Below are positions 57,152-64,000 of a DNA stretch of 64,000 nt, piece after piece. The position numbers and the translations under genes are program-made. Position 1 is the first letter of the stretch. Each line of letters begins with the position of its first letter. Below the pieces are notes generated by a model. It saw nothing but the letters and a program-made list of their open reading frames with translations. It was not told the origin of the DNA and did no database searches. The DNA comes from Variovorax paradoxus (GTDB taxonomy: Bacteria > Pseudomonadota > Gammaproteobacteria > Burkholderiales > Burkholderiaceae_C), in the NCBI RefSeq assembly GCF_009498455.1, contig NZ_CP045644.1, forward strand, positions 372,001 through 436,000, written 5' to 3'.

Positions 57152-58513
57152 ATGAAAAAAGTATTCATCAAGACCTTCGGCTGCCAGATGAACGAGTACG
57201 ACTCGGACAAGATGGCGGACGTGCTCCACGCCGCGCAGGGCTACGAGCCCACGCAGAACGTGGACGAGGCCGACCTCATCCTGTTCAACACCTGCTCGGT
57301 GCGCGAGAAGGCGCAGGAGAAGGTGTTCTCCGACCTCGGCCGCGTGAAGCACCTGAAGGCCAAGGGCGTGAAGATCGGCGTGGGCGGCTGCGTGGCGAGC
57401 CAGGAAGGCCAGGCCATCATCGCGCGCGCGCCCTATGTCGACATCGTGTTCGGCCCGCAGACGCTGCACCGCCTGCCCGAGATGCTGAACGACCGCGACA
57501 GGCTCGACCGCCCGCAGGTCGACATCAGCTTCCCCGAGATCGAGAAGTTCGACCACCTGCCGCCCGCGCGCGTCGAAGGCGCGACCGCCTTCGTGTCGAT
57601 CATGGAAGGCTGCTCCAAGTACTGCAGCTACTGCGTGGTGCCCTACACCCGCGGCGAGGAAGTGAACCGCCCGCTCGACGACGTGCTGGTCGAGATCGCC
57701 GGCCTCGCCGACCAGGGCGTGCGCGAGATCACGCTGCTGGGCCAGAACGTGAACGCCTACCGCGGCAAGATGGGCGACACCGCCGAGATCGCCGACTTCG
57801 CGCTGCTCATCGAGTACGTGGCCGAGATCCCCGGCATCGAGCGCATCCGCTACACCACCAGCCACCCGAACGAGTTCACGCCGCGCCTCATCGAGGCCTA
57901 CGCCAAGGTGCCGCAGCTCGTCTCGCATCTGCACCTGCCGGTGCAGCACGGCAGCGACCGCATCCTCATGGCCATGAAGCGCGGCTACACAGCCATGGAA
58001 TACAAGAGCACGGTGCGCAAGCTGCGTGCCATCCGCCCCGACCTCGCATTGAGCAGCGACTTCATCGTCGGCTTCCCCGGCGAGACCGATGCCGACTTCG
58101 ACAAGATGATGAAGCTCATCGACGACTGCCAGTTCGACAACAGCTTCAGCTTCATCTTCAGCCCGCGCCCCGGCACGCCCGCCGCCGCGCTGCAGGACGA
58201 CACGCCGCACGAGGTGAAGCTGGCGCGCCTGCAGACGCTGCAGCGCGTCATCGATGGCAACGTGCGCCGCTTCGGCGATGCGCTCGTGGGCAGCACGCAG
58301 CGCGTGCTGGTCGAGGGCGCGTCGCGCAAGGACGCGAACGAACTCATGGGCCGCACCGCCTGCAACCGCGTCGTCAACTTCGAAGGCGACGCCCGCCTCG
58401 TGGGCCAGATGGCCGACCTGCGCATCACCCGCTCGCTGGCGTACACGCTGCGCGGCGAAGTGGTCACGCGCGAATCGGCCCTGGCTGCCGCCGCCACGGC
58501 GCTCGCCCACTGA
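57152..58513 (+). CDS. miaB: tRNA-2-methylthio-N6-dimethylallyladenosine synthase
   Basis: Radical-SAM methylthiotransferase acting on A37 of tRNA. In 453 residues: UPF0004 domain ([42 protein letters not shown] with the three cluster cysteines), the radical-SAM CxxxCxxC (CSKYCSYC), and a C-terminal TRAM domain. The stop overlaps the glrK ATG by one base (TGATG), so translation is coupled. Confidence 0.97.
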
Positions 58514-59940
58514 TGGCGAAACGTCCGTCCGTCCGGGGCTCGTTCCAGCAGCTCCTGCTGTTTGCCTTTTTGCTCATCACCGCGCTGCTGGTGGGTGTGG
58601 CGCTGCGCTCGGTGCTGCAGTACGACGCGCTCGTCACGCAAAGCCGCGACGCCGCGGCGCGCGCGCTGCGCCTGTCGGGCGCTTCGCAGTCGCTGGCCGA
58701 ACGCAGCGCGGCCATGGAGCGCGCGGGTCGCCAGTCGCTGGTGCTCAACGACGCCGTGCTGCGCCGCCGCTTCGACGAGGCGGCGCGCGAAGCCCACCAG
58801 GTGCTGGAGCGCCTGGAGCGCAACGGCCTGCCGGCCGCCGGCATCGACATGTGGCGCGGCCAGCTCGGCGTGATCGAAGGGCTGCTCAGCGGCAGCCCCG
58901 ACAGCGCCCTGGCCCGCGAAAGCACGATGGCGATGCAGTTTCGCGAGCTCGACGCGCTGAACACCAACCTCGCGCAGCAGGCCCAGTTTCTGATCGAAAC
59001 GCAGAACGACGCACTGGCCAAGCGCATCGAGAACGCGCGCCGCCGGCTGATGCGCGAGGTGGTGGCCGCCAGCGTGCTGGCCGTGTCGCTGGCGCTGGCC
59101 TTCGGCATCTGGCTGGCGCGTCCCTTCAAGCGCATGGAGCACGCCATCGTCGGCCTCGGCCAGAACCGGCTCGACGAACCGATCGACATCCGCGGCCCGG
59201 CCGACGTGCGCCGCGTGTCGCAGCAGCTCGAATGGCTGCGCCTGCGCCTGACCGAACTCGATGCCGACAAGGCGCGCTTTTTGCGCCACGTGTCGCACGA
59301 GCTGAAGACGCCGCTGGCCGCGCTGCGCGAAGGCGTGTCGCTGCTCGAAGACGGCGTGACCGGCCCGCTGAACCCGGCGCAGCTCGAAGTCGCGCAGATC
59401 CTGCAGCAAAACACCGTGTCGCTGCAGAACCAGATCGAGGCACTGCTGCGCTTCAACGCCGCCGCCTTCGAGGCGCGCGAACTGCGCCGCGAACGCACCG
59501 AGCTGCTGCCGCTGATCGAAGAGCAGATCGAGGCCCAGCGCCTGCAGTGGCAGGCACATGGCCTGCGCGTGCGCGCCGAGGGCGAGCCGATCACGCTGAC
59601 GGTCGACCGCACCAAGCTGGGCACCGCCATCGCCAACCTGCTGTCGAACGCGATCCGTTTCTCAGCCGCGGGCGGCATCATCACGCTGGCCGTGTCGGGC
59701 ACGCCCGAGGCGGTGCACATCGACGTGTGCGACGCCGGCCCCGGCATTGCCACGGGCGACCGCGACCGCATCTTCGAACCCTTCTTCCGCGGCGAGCGCC
59801 AGCCCGAGCACACGGTGAAAGGCACCGGCATCGGACTTTCCATCGTGCAGGAGTACATTGCAGCCCATGGGGGCCGCATCGCCCTGCTGCCGGACGGCCC
59901 CGGTGCACGCTTTCGCATCGAACTGCCGCGCACGACCTGA
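58513..59940 (+). CDS. glrK: Sensor histidine kinase GlrK (QseE-like)
   Basis: A 475-residue membrane kinase: TM1 (about 12-33), a roughly 140-residue periplasmic helical sensor, TM2 (about 177-197), HAMP, the H-box FLRHVSHELKTPLAALREGVSLLEDG, and an ATPase domain (N box IANLLSNAIRFSAAGG, DAGPGI, FRGE, GTGIGLSIV). It is assigned as GlrK because a QseG-like lipoprotein and a GlrR-like sigma-54 regulator follow in the enterobacterial order. Confidence 0.9.
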   Translation: MAKRPSVRGSFQQLLLFAFLLITALLVGVALRSVLQYDALVTQSRDAAARALRLSGASQSLAERSAAMERAGRQSLVLNDAVLRRRFDEAAREAHQVLERLERNGLPAAGIDMWRGQLGVIEGLLSGSPDSALARESTMAMQFRELDALNTNLAQQAQFLIETQNDALAKRIENARRRLMREVVAASVLAVSLALAFGIWLARPFKRMEHAIVGLGQNRLDEPIDIRGPADVRRVSQQLEWLRLRLTELDADKARFLRHVSHELKTPLAALREGVSLLEDGVTGPLNPAQLEVAQILQQNTVSLQNQIEALLRFNAAAFEARELRRERTELLPLIEEQIEAQRLQWQAHGLRVRAEGEPITLTVDRTKLGTAIANLLSNAIRFSAAGGIITLAVSGTPEAVHIDVCDAGPGIATGDRDRIFEPFFRGERQPEHTVKGTGIGLSIVQEYIAAHGGRIALLPDGPGARFRIELPRTT

Positions 59941-59984: not shown

Positions 59985-60638
59985 ATGTTCCTTTCGTTCG
60001 TCCGCAGATCCACCTTCGCCGGGGCCATGGCCGTGCCATGCGCCCTGCTGCTGGCGGCCTGCGCCTCCCAGCCCAAGCCGCCGGCCGAAGCCGACGCGCT
60101 GCCGCCGCCCGTGGCCGCGCCGCGCGTGGTGCCGGTCGAGGCCGAGCCCCGCGCGCCGGCCACGCAGCCGGCCTCGCTGTTCACGCAACTCACGCAGGGG
60201 CCCGTCGCGGCCCTGCTGGCCTATGCCGACAAGGTGCGCCCGCTGGGCGGCGCCGACCTGAGCGCCGAAATTTCGCGCGTCGGCGAACAGGGCGAAACGC
60301 CCGCAGCGCAGATGCAGCTCGCGATCCTGCTTGCGCAGACCCGCGTGCCGGCCGACCTGGCGCGCGCGCTGGGCCTGCTGCAGCGCGTGATCGGCAACCC
60401 CGCGCCCGAAGCGCAGCCGCTGCAACCGCTCGCACGGGTGCTGGCGGCGCGTTACATCGAGCAACGCCGCGTCGAGGACGACCGCGACAAGCAGGTGCAG
60501 CAGCTGCGCGACAGCCAGCGCCGCATCGACCAGCTCAACGAACGCATCGAGGCGCTGCGCGCCATCGAGCGCAGCTTCGCCCGGCCGAACACGCCGGCAC
60601 CTGTCACTGCCCCCAGCGGAAGCCGAACCAATCCATGA
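59985..60638 (+). CDS. qseG: QseG/YfhG-like outer-membrane lipoprotein
   Basis: A 217-residue lipoprotein (lipobox LAAC, Cys26) with a Pro/Ala linker, a helical domain and a C-terminal coiled coil (DKQVQQLRDSQRRIDQLNERIEALRAIE). In E. coli the gene between glrK and glrR encodes QseG, an outer-membrane lipoprotein that contacts the kinase. Sequence similarity is modest; the assignment rests on position, lipobox and coiled coil. Confidence 0.75.
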   Translation: MFLSFVRRSTFAGAMAVPCALLLAACASQPKPPAEADALPPPVAAPRVVPVEAEPRAPATQPASLFTQLTQGPVAALLAYADKVRPLGGADLSAEISRVGEQGETPAAQMQLAILLAQTRVPADLARALGLLQRVIGNPAPEAQPLQPLARVLAARYIEQRRVEDDRDKQVQQLRDSQRRIDQLNERIEALRAIERSFARPNTPAPVTAPSGSRTNP

Positions 60639-60699: not shown

Positions 60700-62088
<1,389 letters not shown>

Positions 62089-62097
62089 CGACAGGCC

Positions 62098-62110
62098 TAA
62101 GTCGTTGATT
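62098..62110 (-). promoter_or_regulatory. IHF site 1 within an 18-bp direct repeat
   Basis: On the minus strand AATCAACGACTTA matches WATCARNNNNTTR. It is part of AAGTCGTTGATTTGAAAG (62099-62116), repeated exactly at 62224-62241. Confidence 0.55.
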
Positions 62111-62142
62111 TGAAAGGCTGTTTTCCGAGGGCCGTCAGGGCT

Positions 62143-62160
62143 TGTCGGGATTCGGCGACA
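62143..62160. promoter_or_regulatory. GlrR-type binding site 2
   Basis: TGTC-N10-GACA, perfect, centre about 129 bp upstream of the predicted start and 67 bp from site 1. Enhancer-type position for a sigma-54 activator. Confidence 0.75.
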
Positions 62161-62174
62161 AAAACGGGGGTTTC

Positions 62175-62193
62175 AGGGGCCTGACGGGCCCCT
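62175..62193. terminator. GC hairpin between GlrR site 2 and the sigma-54 promoter
   Basis: AGGGGCC, loop TGACG, GGCCCCT, followed by CCCCC and then A-rich sequence. It may end the glrR transcript; no T-run on the + strand. Confidence 0.35.
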
Positions 62194-62222
62194 CCCCCAC
62201 AAAAAACGGCTCCGAGTCGCGC

Positions 62223-62235
62223 CAAGTCGTTGATT
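62223..62235 (-). promoter_or_regulatory. IHF site 2 within the 18-bp direct repeat
   Basis: Minus strand AATCAACGACTTG matches WATCARNNNNTTR. It lies between GlrR site 2 and the sigma-54 promoter, where a bend would bring the activator to the polymerase. Confidence 0.65.
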
Positions 62236-62254
62236 TGAAAGCGTTTTTCCAGGC

Positions 62255-62269
62255 TGGCACAGGGTTTGC
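62255..62269 (+). promoter_or_regulatory. Sigma-54 (-24/-12) promoter upstream of opgH
   Basis: TGGCAC-N5-TTGC with GG (62256-62257) and GC (62268-62269) exactly 10 bp apart. Predicted transcription start about 62281, 210 nt before opgH. Confidence 0.75.
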
Positions 62270-62281
62270 CCCTGTACTGGC

Positions 62282-62482
62282 ATGACAGCACTTACCAGCC
62301 CATCTTTCGCACTGCGTCCGCAGCGCGACGGCCTGCGTCAAAAGCAGTTTTCCTCCTCGCGGCCCCGTGCCGCGGGCCATTCGCTGACCGCGCTCCCGGG
62401 CGTCGGCGGCGCCGCCACGGACTGCGTCTTCAAGCGCCTTCCGGCCATTGGCGACACCCCCCTCGACAAGCAGCGTTGGTGA
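62282..62482 (+). CDS. Possible small ORF at the sigma-54 transcription start
   Basis: A 66-codon ORF (MTALTSPSFALRPQRDGLRQ...) whose ATG lies one base after the predicted start, so it would be leaderless. Its TGA is followed at once by ATG AAA CGA TGA, a three-codon ORF that overlaps the opgH ATG. No family is recognised. The sequence is basic and Ser/Arg-rich and could instead be an untranslated leader or small RNA. Coding status is uncertain. Confidence 0.3.
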   Translation: MTALTSPSFALRPQRDGLRQKQFSSSRPRAAGHSLTALPGVGGAATDCVFKRLPAIGDTPLDKQRW

Positions 62483-62490
62483 ATGAAACG

Positions 62491-64000
62491 ATGAAGCCGA
62501 ACGACTTCTCCCAACTCAACGTCCTCGCCGAATCCGATTTCGCGCGCCGCAGCGCGCTGCGCGAGGAACGCCACCCCAACGCCGTCACGGCACCGCCGGT
62601 GAACCGCGGTTCCATGGCACCGCGCCCCTGGCGCGGTTTCTGGAACAGCCTGGGCACCGCCATGCTCGTGCGCCTGGGCGCCGGCCGCAATGCCGACAGC
62701 GCCCCTGCCGCCAAGCAAGCCACCCCGGCCCCGCAGGCCTGGGAACGCACCGCCGGCCAGCGCCGCCTCGCCTTCATGCTGCTCACGCTGCTGAGCACGG
62801 TGATCGCGTCGTCGCTGTTCGCCAGCGTGCAACCCGACTACGACAACGTCTGGCTCGAATACGGCCAGATCGGCCTGTACGGCCTGCTGTCGGGCTGGGT
62901 CGTCACCGGCTTCGTGACCGCGCTCATGGGCTTCTACGTTTCGGTGCGCGGTGACAAGCACGCGCTGTCGGCCAAGCAGGTCGCCACCCATCCGATGAAC
63001 CCCGAGGCACGCACCGCGATCATCATGCCGATCTGCAACGAAGACGTTGCCACGGTGTTCGCCGGCCTGCGCGCCACCTGCGAATCGGTTGCCACCACGG
63101 GCCACGCCAGGCAGTTCGACGTGTTCGTGCTGTCCGACAGCTACAACCCCGAGACCGCCGCCGCCGAGCGCGCCGCCTGGGAAGACTTGCGCGCCGCACT
63201 GGCCGAAAGCCCGAACCAGCCGCAGGTCGAGGTGTACTACCGCCTGCGCACCCGCCGCACGCACCGCAAGGCCGGCAACGTCGCCGACTTCTGCCGCCGC
63301 TGGGGCAAGGACTACCGCTACATGGTCGTGCTCGACGCCGACTCCGTGATGAGCGGCGACTGCCTGGCCTCGATGGTCAAGCTGATGGAAGCCAACCCCA
63401 CCGCCGGCATCATCCAGACCGCGACGCAGGCCATCGGCCACGTCACGCTGCACGCCCGCGCACAGCAGTTCGCTTCGCGCGTGACGGGTCGCCTGTTCAC
63501 GCTGGGCATGCAGTTCTGGCAGCTCGGCGAGTCGCACTACTGGGGCCACAACGCGATCATCCGCGTCGAAGCCTTCATGAAGCATTGCGCGCTGGCCCCG
63601 ATCAAGGGCACCGGCGGCATGTCGGGCGGCATCATGTCGCACGACTTCGTCGAAGCCGCGCTGATGCGCCGCGCCGGCTACCACGTGTGGCTGGTGTCCG
63701 ACCTGGTCGGCAGCTACGAGCAGCAACCGCCGGACCTGCTGGCCGAGCTGCAACGCGACCGCCGCTGGTGCCAGGGCAACCTGCAGAACGCCCGCCTGAT
63801 GGCCGAACCCGGCATCCACCCGGTGCACCGCGCGATGTTCGTGACCGGCACCATGGCGTATGTCTCGGCCCCGCTGTGGCTTGCGTTCCTGACGCTGGGC
63901 ACCGCCCTCTGGCTGAGCGGCTCGAGCCTCGTGTCGAGCTGGAGCGTGCTGCCCGCCGAACTCGCCGGCCTCTGGCTCTGGACCCTGTGCCTGCTGTTCC
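62491..64000 (+). CDS. opgH: Glucans biosynthesis glucosyltransferase H, 3' end beyond window
   Basis: Inner-membrane GT2 enzyme that polymerises and exports the backbone of osmoregulated periplasmic glucans. The visible 503 residues hold a cytoplasmic N-terminal tail, two TM helices (about 95-145), and the GT2 domain with IIMPICNED, VVLDADSVMSGD (DxD), GHNAIIR and QRDRRWCQGN (Q/R-x-x-R-W), then further TM segments starting AYVSAPLWLAFLTLG. The usual partner opgG is not upstream. The start has only a weak GGTG site and overlaps a three-codon ORF; the gene lies behind a GlrR/sigma-54 promoter. Confidence 0.95.
   Translation, partial: MKPNDFSQLNVLAESDFARRSALREERHPNAVTAPPVNRGSMAPRPWRGFWNSLGTAMLVRLGAGRNADSAPAAKQATPAPQAWERTAGQRRLAFMLLTLLSTVIASSLFASVQPDYDNVWLEYGQIGLYGLLSGWVVTGFVTALMGFYVSVRGDKHALSAKQVATHPMNPEARTAIIMPICNEDVATVFAGLRATCESVATTGHARQFDVFVLSDSYNPETAAAERAAWEDLRAALAESPNQPQVEVYYRLRTRRTHRKAGNVADFCRRWGKDYRYMVVLDADSVMSGDCLASMVKLMEANPTAGIIQTATQAIGHVTLHARAQQFASRVTGRLFTLGMQFWQLGESHYWGHNAIIRVEAFMKHCALAPIKGTGGMSGGIMSHDFVEAALMRRAGYHVWLVSDLVGSYEQQPPDLLAELQRDRRWCQGNLQNARLMAEPGIHPVHRAMFVTGTMAYVSAPLWLAFLTLGTALWLSGSSLVSSWSVLPAELAGLWLWTLCLLF

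Follow-up and report, generated by a model that had tools for sequence, protein, structure and literature searches.

A 64,000-nucleotide (nt) stretch of the Variovorax paradoxus genome (contig NZ_CP045644.1, positions 372,001 to 436,000; hereafter the window) carries a control region between glrR, which encodes a response regulator, and opgH, which encodes a glucosyltransferase of periplasmic glucan synthesis. Genes are arranged in the order glrK, a lipoprotein gene in the qseG position, glrR, the control region, an open reading frame (ORF) of 66 codons, and opgH. We consider it probable that the region is a sigma-54 promoter for opgG-opgH that is controlled by GlrK-QseG-GlrR and assisted by integration host factor (IHF), that its transcripts start on or near an ATG and are leaderless, and that in Variovorax a small ORF and translational coupling stand between the promoter and opgH. 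Read from sequence, the glucan synthesis genes are a candidate new target for a known regulatory system, with an unexpected geometry and a predicted small-protein gene that had been overlooked.

The sites themselves are clear in the window. Both GlrR boxes, TGTCGCCGAGTAGCGACA at 62076..62093 and TGTCGGGATTCGGCGACA at 62143..62160, match TGTC-N10-GACA exactly, and the first overlaps the glrR stop codon (62086-62088). Two IHF motifs on the minus strand (62098..62110 and 62223..62235, each with 0 mismatches) start one base ahead of the two copies of an exact 18-bp direct repeat, AAGTCGTTGATTTGAAAG (62099-62116 and 62224-62241). The sigma-54 promoter, TGGCACAGGGTTTGC, follows on the plus strand at 62255..62269, with 10/10 of the specified bases of the consensus TGGCAC-N5-TTGC. 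An earlier note on this DNA had described two perfect boxes, two IHF sites with an exact repeat, and a promoter in the right order; direct reading and a script check found both boxes exact, and the IHF sites, the repeat, and the order of boxes, IHF motifs and promoter were likewise confirmed. The transcription start is predicted on the plus strand at 62280..62282, no more than 2 nt from the A of an ATG that the note had missed. Strict counting from the -24/-12 elements puts +1 one base earlier, which makes no practical difference with a leader of 0-2 nt. We also observed an extra conserved block directly 3' of box 2 (62160-62179, AAAAACGGGGGTTT), which carried 1.45 and 1.13 bits per base in 21 related loci that have the small ORF and 0.83 and 0.42 in 40 other loci.

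The closest known system is the glmY promoter of E. coli, which depends on QseE/QseG/QseF (equivalent to GlrK/QseG/GlrR), IHF, and sigma-54. QseF, helped by IHF, is described as binding three upstream activating sequences (UAS; consensus TGTN12ACA) before glmY, and as also activating rpoE (PMC6075780). Relative to the RNA start, glmY has boxes of the TGTC-N10-GACA type at -230, -197, and -134, IHF motifs at -177 and -58, and the promoter TGGCAC-N5-CTGC; in the window, counting from the ATG, the corresponding positions are -206 and -139 for the boxes and -184 and -59 for the IHF motifs. The annotated glmY RNA start lies 12 nt past the promoter GC (TGGCACAGTTACTGC), the same distance as the window ATG. 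The two regions share a common plan, but glmY has three boxes and its second IHF motif is in the opposite orientation. Moreover, the glmY region precedes glrK and gives rise to a small RNA, whereas the window region comes after glrR and opens a protein frame.

Single boxes are common, with 92 in the genome (a single contig of 7,288,087 bases) compared with 62 for a reversed control pattern. In combination they are rare. The 7.29-Mb genome has a single instance of a box with TGGCAY-N5-TTGC 80-108 nt behind it, at this locus, and 0 instances of the control pattern. A search of 299 genomes of the family located this composite at 46 places, spread over 45 genomes, with the control matching once. 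By coordinates, 37 of the 46 places are at glrR, 2 are at opgGH away from glrR, and 7 are elsewhere. We considered these last seven as further GlrR targets, but we found no second exact box in the 200 nt ahead of any of them and saw no shared gene behind them, so we treated them as chance matches.

The region recurs behind glrR in relatives. In the genome sample, 84 genomes from 44 genera had a best match taken as a GlrR orthologue (E at most 9.1e-171), and opgG or opgH is the next gene in 71 of these (38/44 genera) and not in the other 13. For the sites, we compared 166 stretches behind GlrR orthologues (30 from the genome sample, the best 80 listed from GTDB contigs, and 56 fetched), of which 157 remained after removal of near-identical ones. 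In 112 of the 157, the gene next after glrR is opgG (64) or opgH (48); the earlier note had not seen that opgG is the first gene in so many related loci. A promoter with at least 8 of 10 consensus bases was present in 111 of the 112 loci and was perfect (10/10) in 78 of those 111. At the distances seen in the window, box 2 is exact in 66 loci, box 1 in 49, and both in 36. Of 39 exact box pairs, 37 have a spacing of 67 bp. An exact box is present in 102 loci; the one nearest the promoter lies 110-113 nt ahead of it in 66, 177-183 nt ahead in 13 that have box 1 alone, and at other distances in 23. The upstream IHF motif is strict in 54/111 loci and the promoter-near motif in 70/111, or in 102/111 if up to one mismatch is allowed. 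The exact 18-bp repeat is not generally conserved. The site plan is thus conserved one site at a time, if not all together, and the strict set in the window is among the more complete ones.

The control region appears to go with opgG rather than only with glrR. In two genomes of one genus (g120; G119 and G282), the glrR locus has no box, while opgG-opgH lies on another stretch with two boxes 68 bp apart and a promoter of its own. In both relocated copies (L184 and L185), the triplet 11 nt past the promoter GC is ATC. In three further loci (L069, L021, and L025), the control region is 449-946 bp past glrR and near the opg gene, which looks like an insertion of sequence between glrR and the control region. 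The earlier note had proposed that GlrK/GlrR is wired to periplasmic glucan synthesis, and the comparisons argue for it: the sites recur, opgG or opgH follows GlrR in most sampled genomes, and relocated opgGH keeps its boxes. A putative wiring of GlrK/QseG/GlrR to glucan synthesis through opgG/opgH is well supported by these patterns.

The position of the start codon is an unexpected feature of these loci. An ATG lies 11-14 nt past the promoter GC in 87 of the 111 glrR-opgG/opgH loci with a promoter (6 at offset 11, 64 at 12, 11 at 13, and 6 at 14), against a background over the other offsets from 0 to 79 of 0.95 ATGs per offset on average and at most 5. In the genome sample, the same was seen in 50 of 71 loci with opg targets, covering 26 of 38 genera. 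This ATG is in the OpgG frame in 49 of 63 opgG loci, 42 of which have no other in-frame ATG ahead of the region of homology. Signal-peptide-like sequence begins right at it, as in a Ramlibacter (MKALSRLAQLLTVLLL) and in Rubrivivax albus (MWRTLWLSLCLAWPLA). Among the opgH loci, 38 of 48 have the ATG, which starts OpgH itself in 13 and opens a short ORF in 25 (66-70 codons in 21 loci, 21 codons in two, 29 in one, and 32 in one). Since the A of the ATG occupies the place of the first GlmY base in the shared plan, we infer a leaderless mRNA from a sigma-54 promoter, its 5' end being predicted. Behind glrR more widely, an ATG at 11-14 nt was found in only 2 of 30 other promoters, one of which belongs to a 2.5-Mb genome discussed below. 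The arrangement is a feature of part of this family and not of GlrR systems in general.

Under the reading we prefer, phosphorylated GlrR would bind the two boxes, IHF would bend the DNA, and RNA polymerase with sigma-54 (RpoN) would begin transcription at the A of the ATG or at most 2 nt away from it. The resulting mRNA would be essentially without a 5' leader and would be translated without a Shine-Dalgarno sequence. In many relatives, OpgG would begin with the ATG at +1, or OpgH would in loci lacking opgG. In the genera Variovorax, Xenophilus, and Pseudacidovorax, this ATG would instead open a gene of 66-70 codons whose end is no more than 14 nt from the opgH start, and translation of opgH would then be largely coupled to this small ORF.

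In the window, the small ORF is on the plus strand at 62282..62482, and its start codon, 12 nt past the GC, is at the predicted +1. The earlier note had the promoter facing opgH; opgH is indeed downstream, but the first frame after the promoter is this unreported ORF. Corresponding ORFs occur in 21 loci of the Variovorax, Xenophilus, and Pseudacidovorax group and are conserved as protein. In 20 homologues, the ratio of nonsynonymous to synonymous differences (pN/pS) was 0.53 in frame, against 1.07 and 1.34 when the frame was shifted, and pairwise differences by codon position numbered 2807, 2367, and 4345. Among 90 candidates from a protein search, 89 clusters had E values of 0.01 or lower, all without Pfam domains and named 'hypothetical protein' wherever the source gives a name. 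An alignment of 32 homologues (31 of the 89 clusters) has 11 invariant columns, in blocks around SPSFALRPQRDGLRQKQ and DCVFKRFPAIGDTP. The product is rich in basic residues, matched 0 families in Pfam and NCBIfam, and was given no confident fold by AlphaFold2 (mean predicted local distance difference test, pLDDT, 61.8; predicted template modelling score, pTM, 0.14). We considered an origin of the small ORF from the 5' end of opgG but set it aside, the likeness between the two being only vague and judged by eye. We note that in four loci from other lineages with opgH directly downstream (L012, L015, L014, and L131), the ATG at this position opens dissimilar short ORFs, 21, 29, and 32 codons long.

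Such an ORF could be no more than a leader cistron, in which translation matters and the product does not, and which delivers ribosomes to opgH from the leaderless start. We regard this account as rather unlikely, although parts of the evidence fit it. In 21/21 loci, the distance from the small-ORF stop to the opgH ATG is between -4 and +14 nt (8 nt in the window, with an ATGA overlap in one locus), and a Shine-Dalgarno-like sequence precedes opgH in only 6 of them. Because of this spacing and the scarcity of ribosome-binding sequence, opgH is probably translated largely by coupling from the small ORF. The dissimilar ORFs of other lineages and the lack of a confident fold also agree with a role confined to translation. 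Against it stand the two conserved blocks with their invariant columns, the low pN/pS, and a length kept at 66-70 codons. A further point comes from a 2.5-Mb genome (G065; 230 contigs, 92% completeness), the one with a start codon at offset 12 mentioned above, which keeps both boxes, both IHF motifs, a 9/10 promoter, and a 67-codon ORF with, by eye, the same conserved blocks. No OpgH match was found in this 92%-complete genome, and the 1.1 kb after the small ORF is not opgH. Retention of the ORF without detectable OpgH favours a function of its own for the small protein, with the incompleteness of the genome as a caveat.

Several observations weigh against our preferred reading. Shared ancestry inflates all locus counts. 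The earlier note had suggested looking for the same site set before opgH in relatives; the sites do recur singly at fixed distances, but all five strict sites at fixed distances are present in just 18/111 loci. Even among the 21 small-ORF loci, where box 2 and the upstream IHF motif are exact or strict in 21/21, box 1 is exact in only 7, the promoter-near IHF motif is strict in 8, and all five sites are strict in 6. The six small-ORF loci with a Shine-Dalgarno-like sequence before opgH indicate that coupling need not be general. For the regulator, the best NCBIfam model for the window protein is GlrR, with 621 bits, under the 763-bit cut-off. For the start codon, an ATG at 11-14 nt is missing from 24 of the 111 loci, and 14 of these have a perfect promoter; leaders of about 31-53 nt are seen in several loci (e.g., L138, L139, L142, L157, L161, and L162), no start is near the perfect promoter of L165 or that of L168, and both relocated opgGH copies lack the ATG.

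These exceptions, together with the window 5' end being a prediction, are what favours the view that the start codon is not leaderless at all, that the RNA comes from further upstream by another promoter or by read-through from glrR, and that the ATG position reflects a compact arrangement. This seems to us improbable. A consensus scan of 61900-62700 found no sigma-70-like promoter, and ATGs peak sharply at one offset. A Shine-Dalgarno-like tetramer precedes the +1 ATG in just 6 of 87 loci and is absent from the window, which means that lengthening the leader would provide no site for ribosome binding. Very improbable, finally, is the proposal that the promoter yields a GlmY-like regulatory RNA from the 210-nt leader with opgH as a read-through target: the control region does follow the glmY promoter plan, with an equal distance from GC to start, but we rejected a small RNA here because conservation in this stretch is that of a protein, the folding of its RNA does not stand out (z -0.39, with 61 of 200 shuffled sequences folding equally well), both Rfam matches in the vicinity of the leader are under the gathering score, and GlmY (RF00128) had 0 matches in the genome though the E. 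coli control was detected, and in addition the scan of 61900-62700 found no terminator-like site and the same start opens OpgG or OpgH directly in many relatives. In Variovorax, what stands in place of the small RNA that the earlier note had offered as an alternative is, as judged from coding conservation, a conserved small-protein gene.

Returning to the leaderless sigma-54 promoter, we tentatively extend the proposal, at somewhat less than even confidence. Sigma-54 promoters with a start codon at +1 may be stable over much of the family, giving leaderless, activator-dependent mRNAs, and Variovorax and its allies may keep a new GlrR-controlled small protein with its own function in envelope homeostasis, retained even without detectable OpgH.

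Comparison with other systems places these features in context. The other E. coli target of QseF, rpoE P2, is described as sigma-54-dependent, concerned with envelope homeostasis, and provided with UAS like those of glmY (PMC6075780). Unlike in the window, the gene that it drives encodes a sigma factor and is located away from glrR, and we liken the two by description. The qseEGF genes are reported to occur in Betaproteobacteria (PMC12691602). Sigma-54 has been described as broadly controlling the bacterial exterior, and the words glucan, mdoG, and opgG are not in the main text of that account (PMC3162934). Among the matches listed from open-licence PMC literature, with supplementary tables of transcription start sites outside the scope, none concerned GlrR/QseF together with opgG/opgH, and none treated leaderless mRNA from sigma-54 promoters as a class. 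Leaderless mRNAs are known from rhizobia, with 171 reported in Sinorhizobium meliloti, where the RNA starts on the AUG (PMC3616915), and 192 starting exactly on the AUG in Bradyrhizobium japonicum, preceded by an extended -10 motif, TGnTA (PMC4842269). No tie to sigma-54 is stated in the available text of these two reports, and the rhizobial starts were mapped whereas the window start is predicted.

Within Betaproteobacteria, a nearer parallel is a group of BON-domain genes behind glrR (in Herbaspirillum, Janthinobacterium, Chitinimonas, and others), which likewise have a sigma-54-type promoter behind glrR. These loci differ in having another target gene, a leader of 58-80 nt, and a Shine-Dalgarno-like sequence in 12/12 cases. 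The BON domain was confirmed in 6/6 proteins checked (L100, L091, L111, L114, L102, and L123, all from other Betaproteobacteria, where the gene is near or behind the promoter linked to glrR), with EF hands beside it in L114 and L123. Possibly, the BON-domain gene is an older GlrR target. One type of control region appears to serve the glmY RNA, BON-domain genes, opgG, opgH, or small ORFs according to lineage, which would amount to an exchange of targets by one regulator. Outside enterobacteria, GlrK/QseG/GlrR gains in periplasmic glucan synthesis a direct candidate target that is testable in culturable comamonads. The loci also offer many natural cases of a strictly regulated sigma-54 promoter that seems to feed leaderless translation, which allows asking whether ribosomes prefer leaderless mRNAs under envelope stress, and they add an uncharacterised conserved small-protein gene.

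The genes around the control region fit the proposed system to differing degrees. The sensor kinase gene glrK (qseE; 58513..59940, plus strand) encodes a protein with 33% identity to E. coli K-12 GlrK (138/423) and with HisKA and HATPase domains in Pfam (frame read from 58510). The lipoprotein gene in the qseG position (59985..60638, plus strand; 217 codons, LLLAAC lipobox) gave no convincing NCBIfam match (best E 0.003, far below the cut-off) and is QseG-like by position only, so that this member of the glrK-qseG-glrR-type cluster in which the GlrR orthologue lies is placed by position, its family not being confirmed. The enhancer-binding response regulator gene glrR (qseF; 60700..62088, plus strand) has its best named matches in Variovorax (99% to V. 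boronicumulans). The earlier note had called its recognition segment nearly identical to that of E. coli; the RNRTEFY stretch is identical, and over the whole protein identity with E. coli K-12 GlrR is 57% (257/449 residues). Downstream, opgH (mdoH; plus strand) begins at 62491 and runs off the window at 64000, and it matches the MdoH model NF003960 with 960.6 bits against a cut-off of 829. The single MdoG-family protein of this genome is encoded elsewhere and has a twin-arginine-like RRSFLA near its start, a feature that OpgD shares. Four genes of the HU/IHF family are present, not resolved into IHF subunits, and the sigma-54 DNA-binding domain has two matches, so RpoN is encoded. A TGGCACGACCATTGC site (L195; from G000:C1:5874771 on) lies 13 nt ahead of the ATG of the same genome's second rpoN-like gene; this site may be a chance match because it also lies in long open frames. 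Sites of the TGGCACGACCATTGC type with an ATG at 10-14 nt number 5 of 29 in the genome, compared with 1 of 11 for the control.

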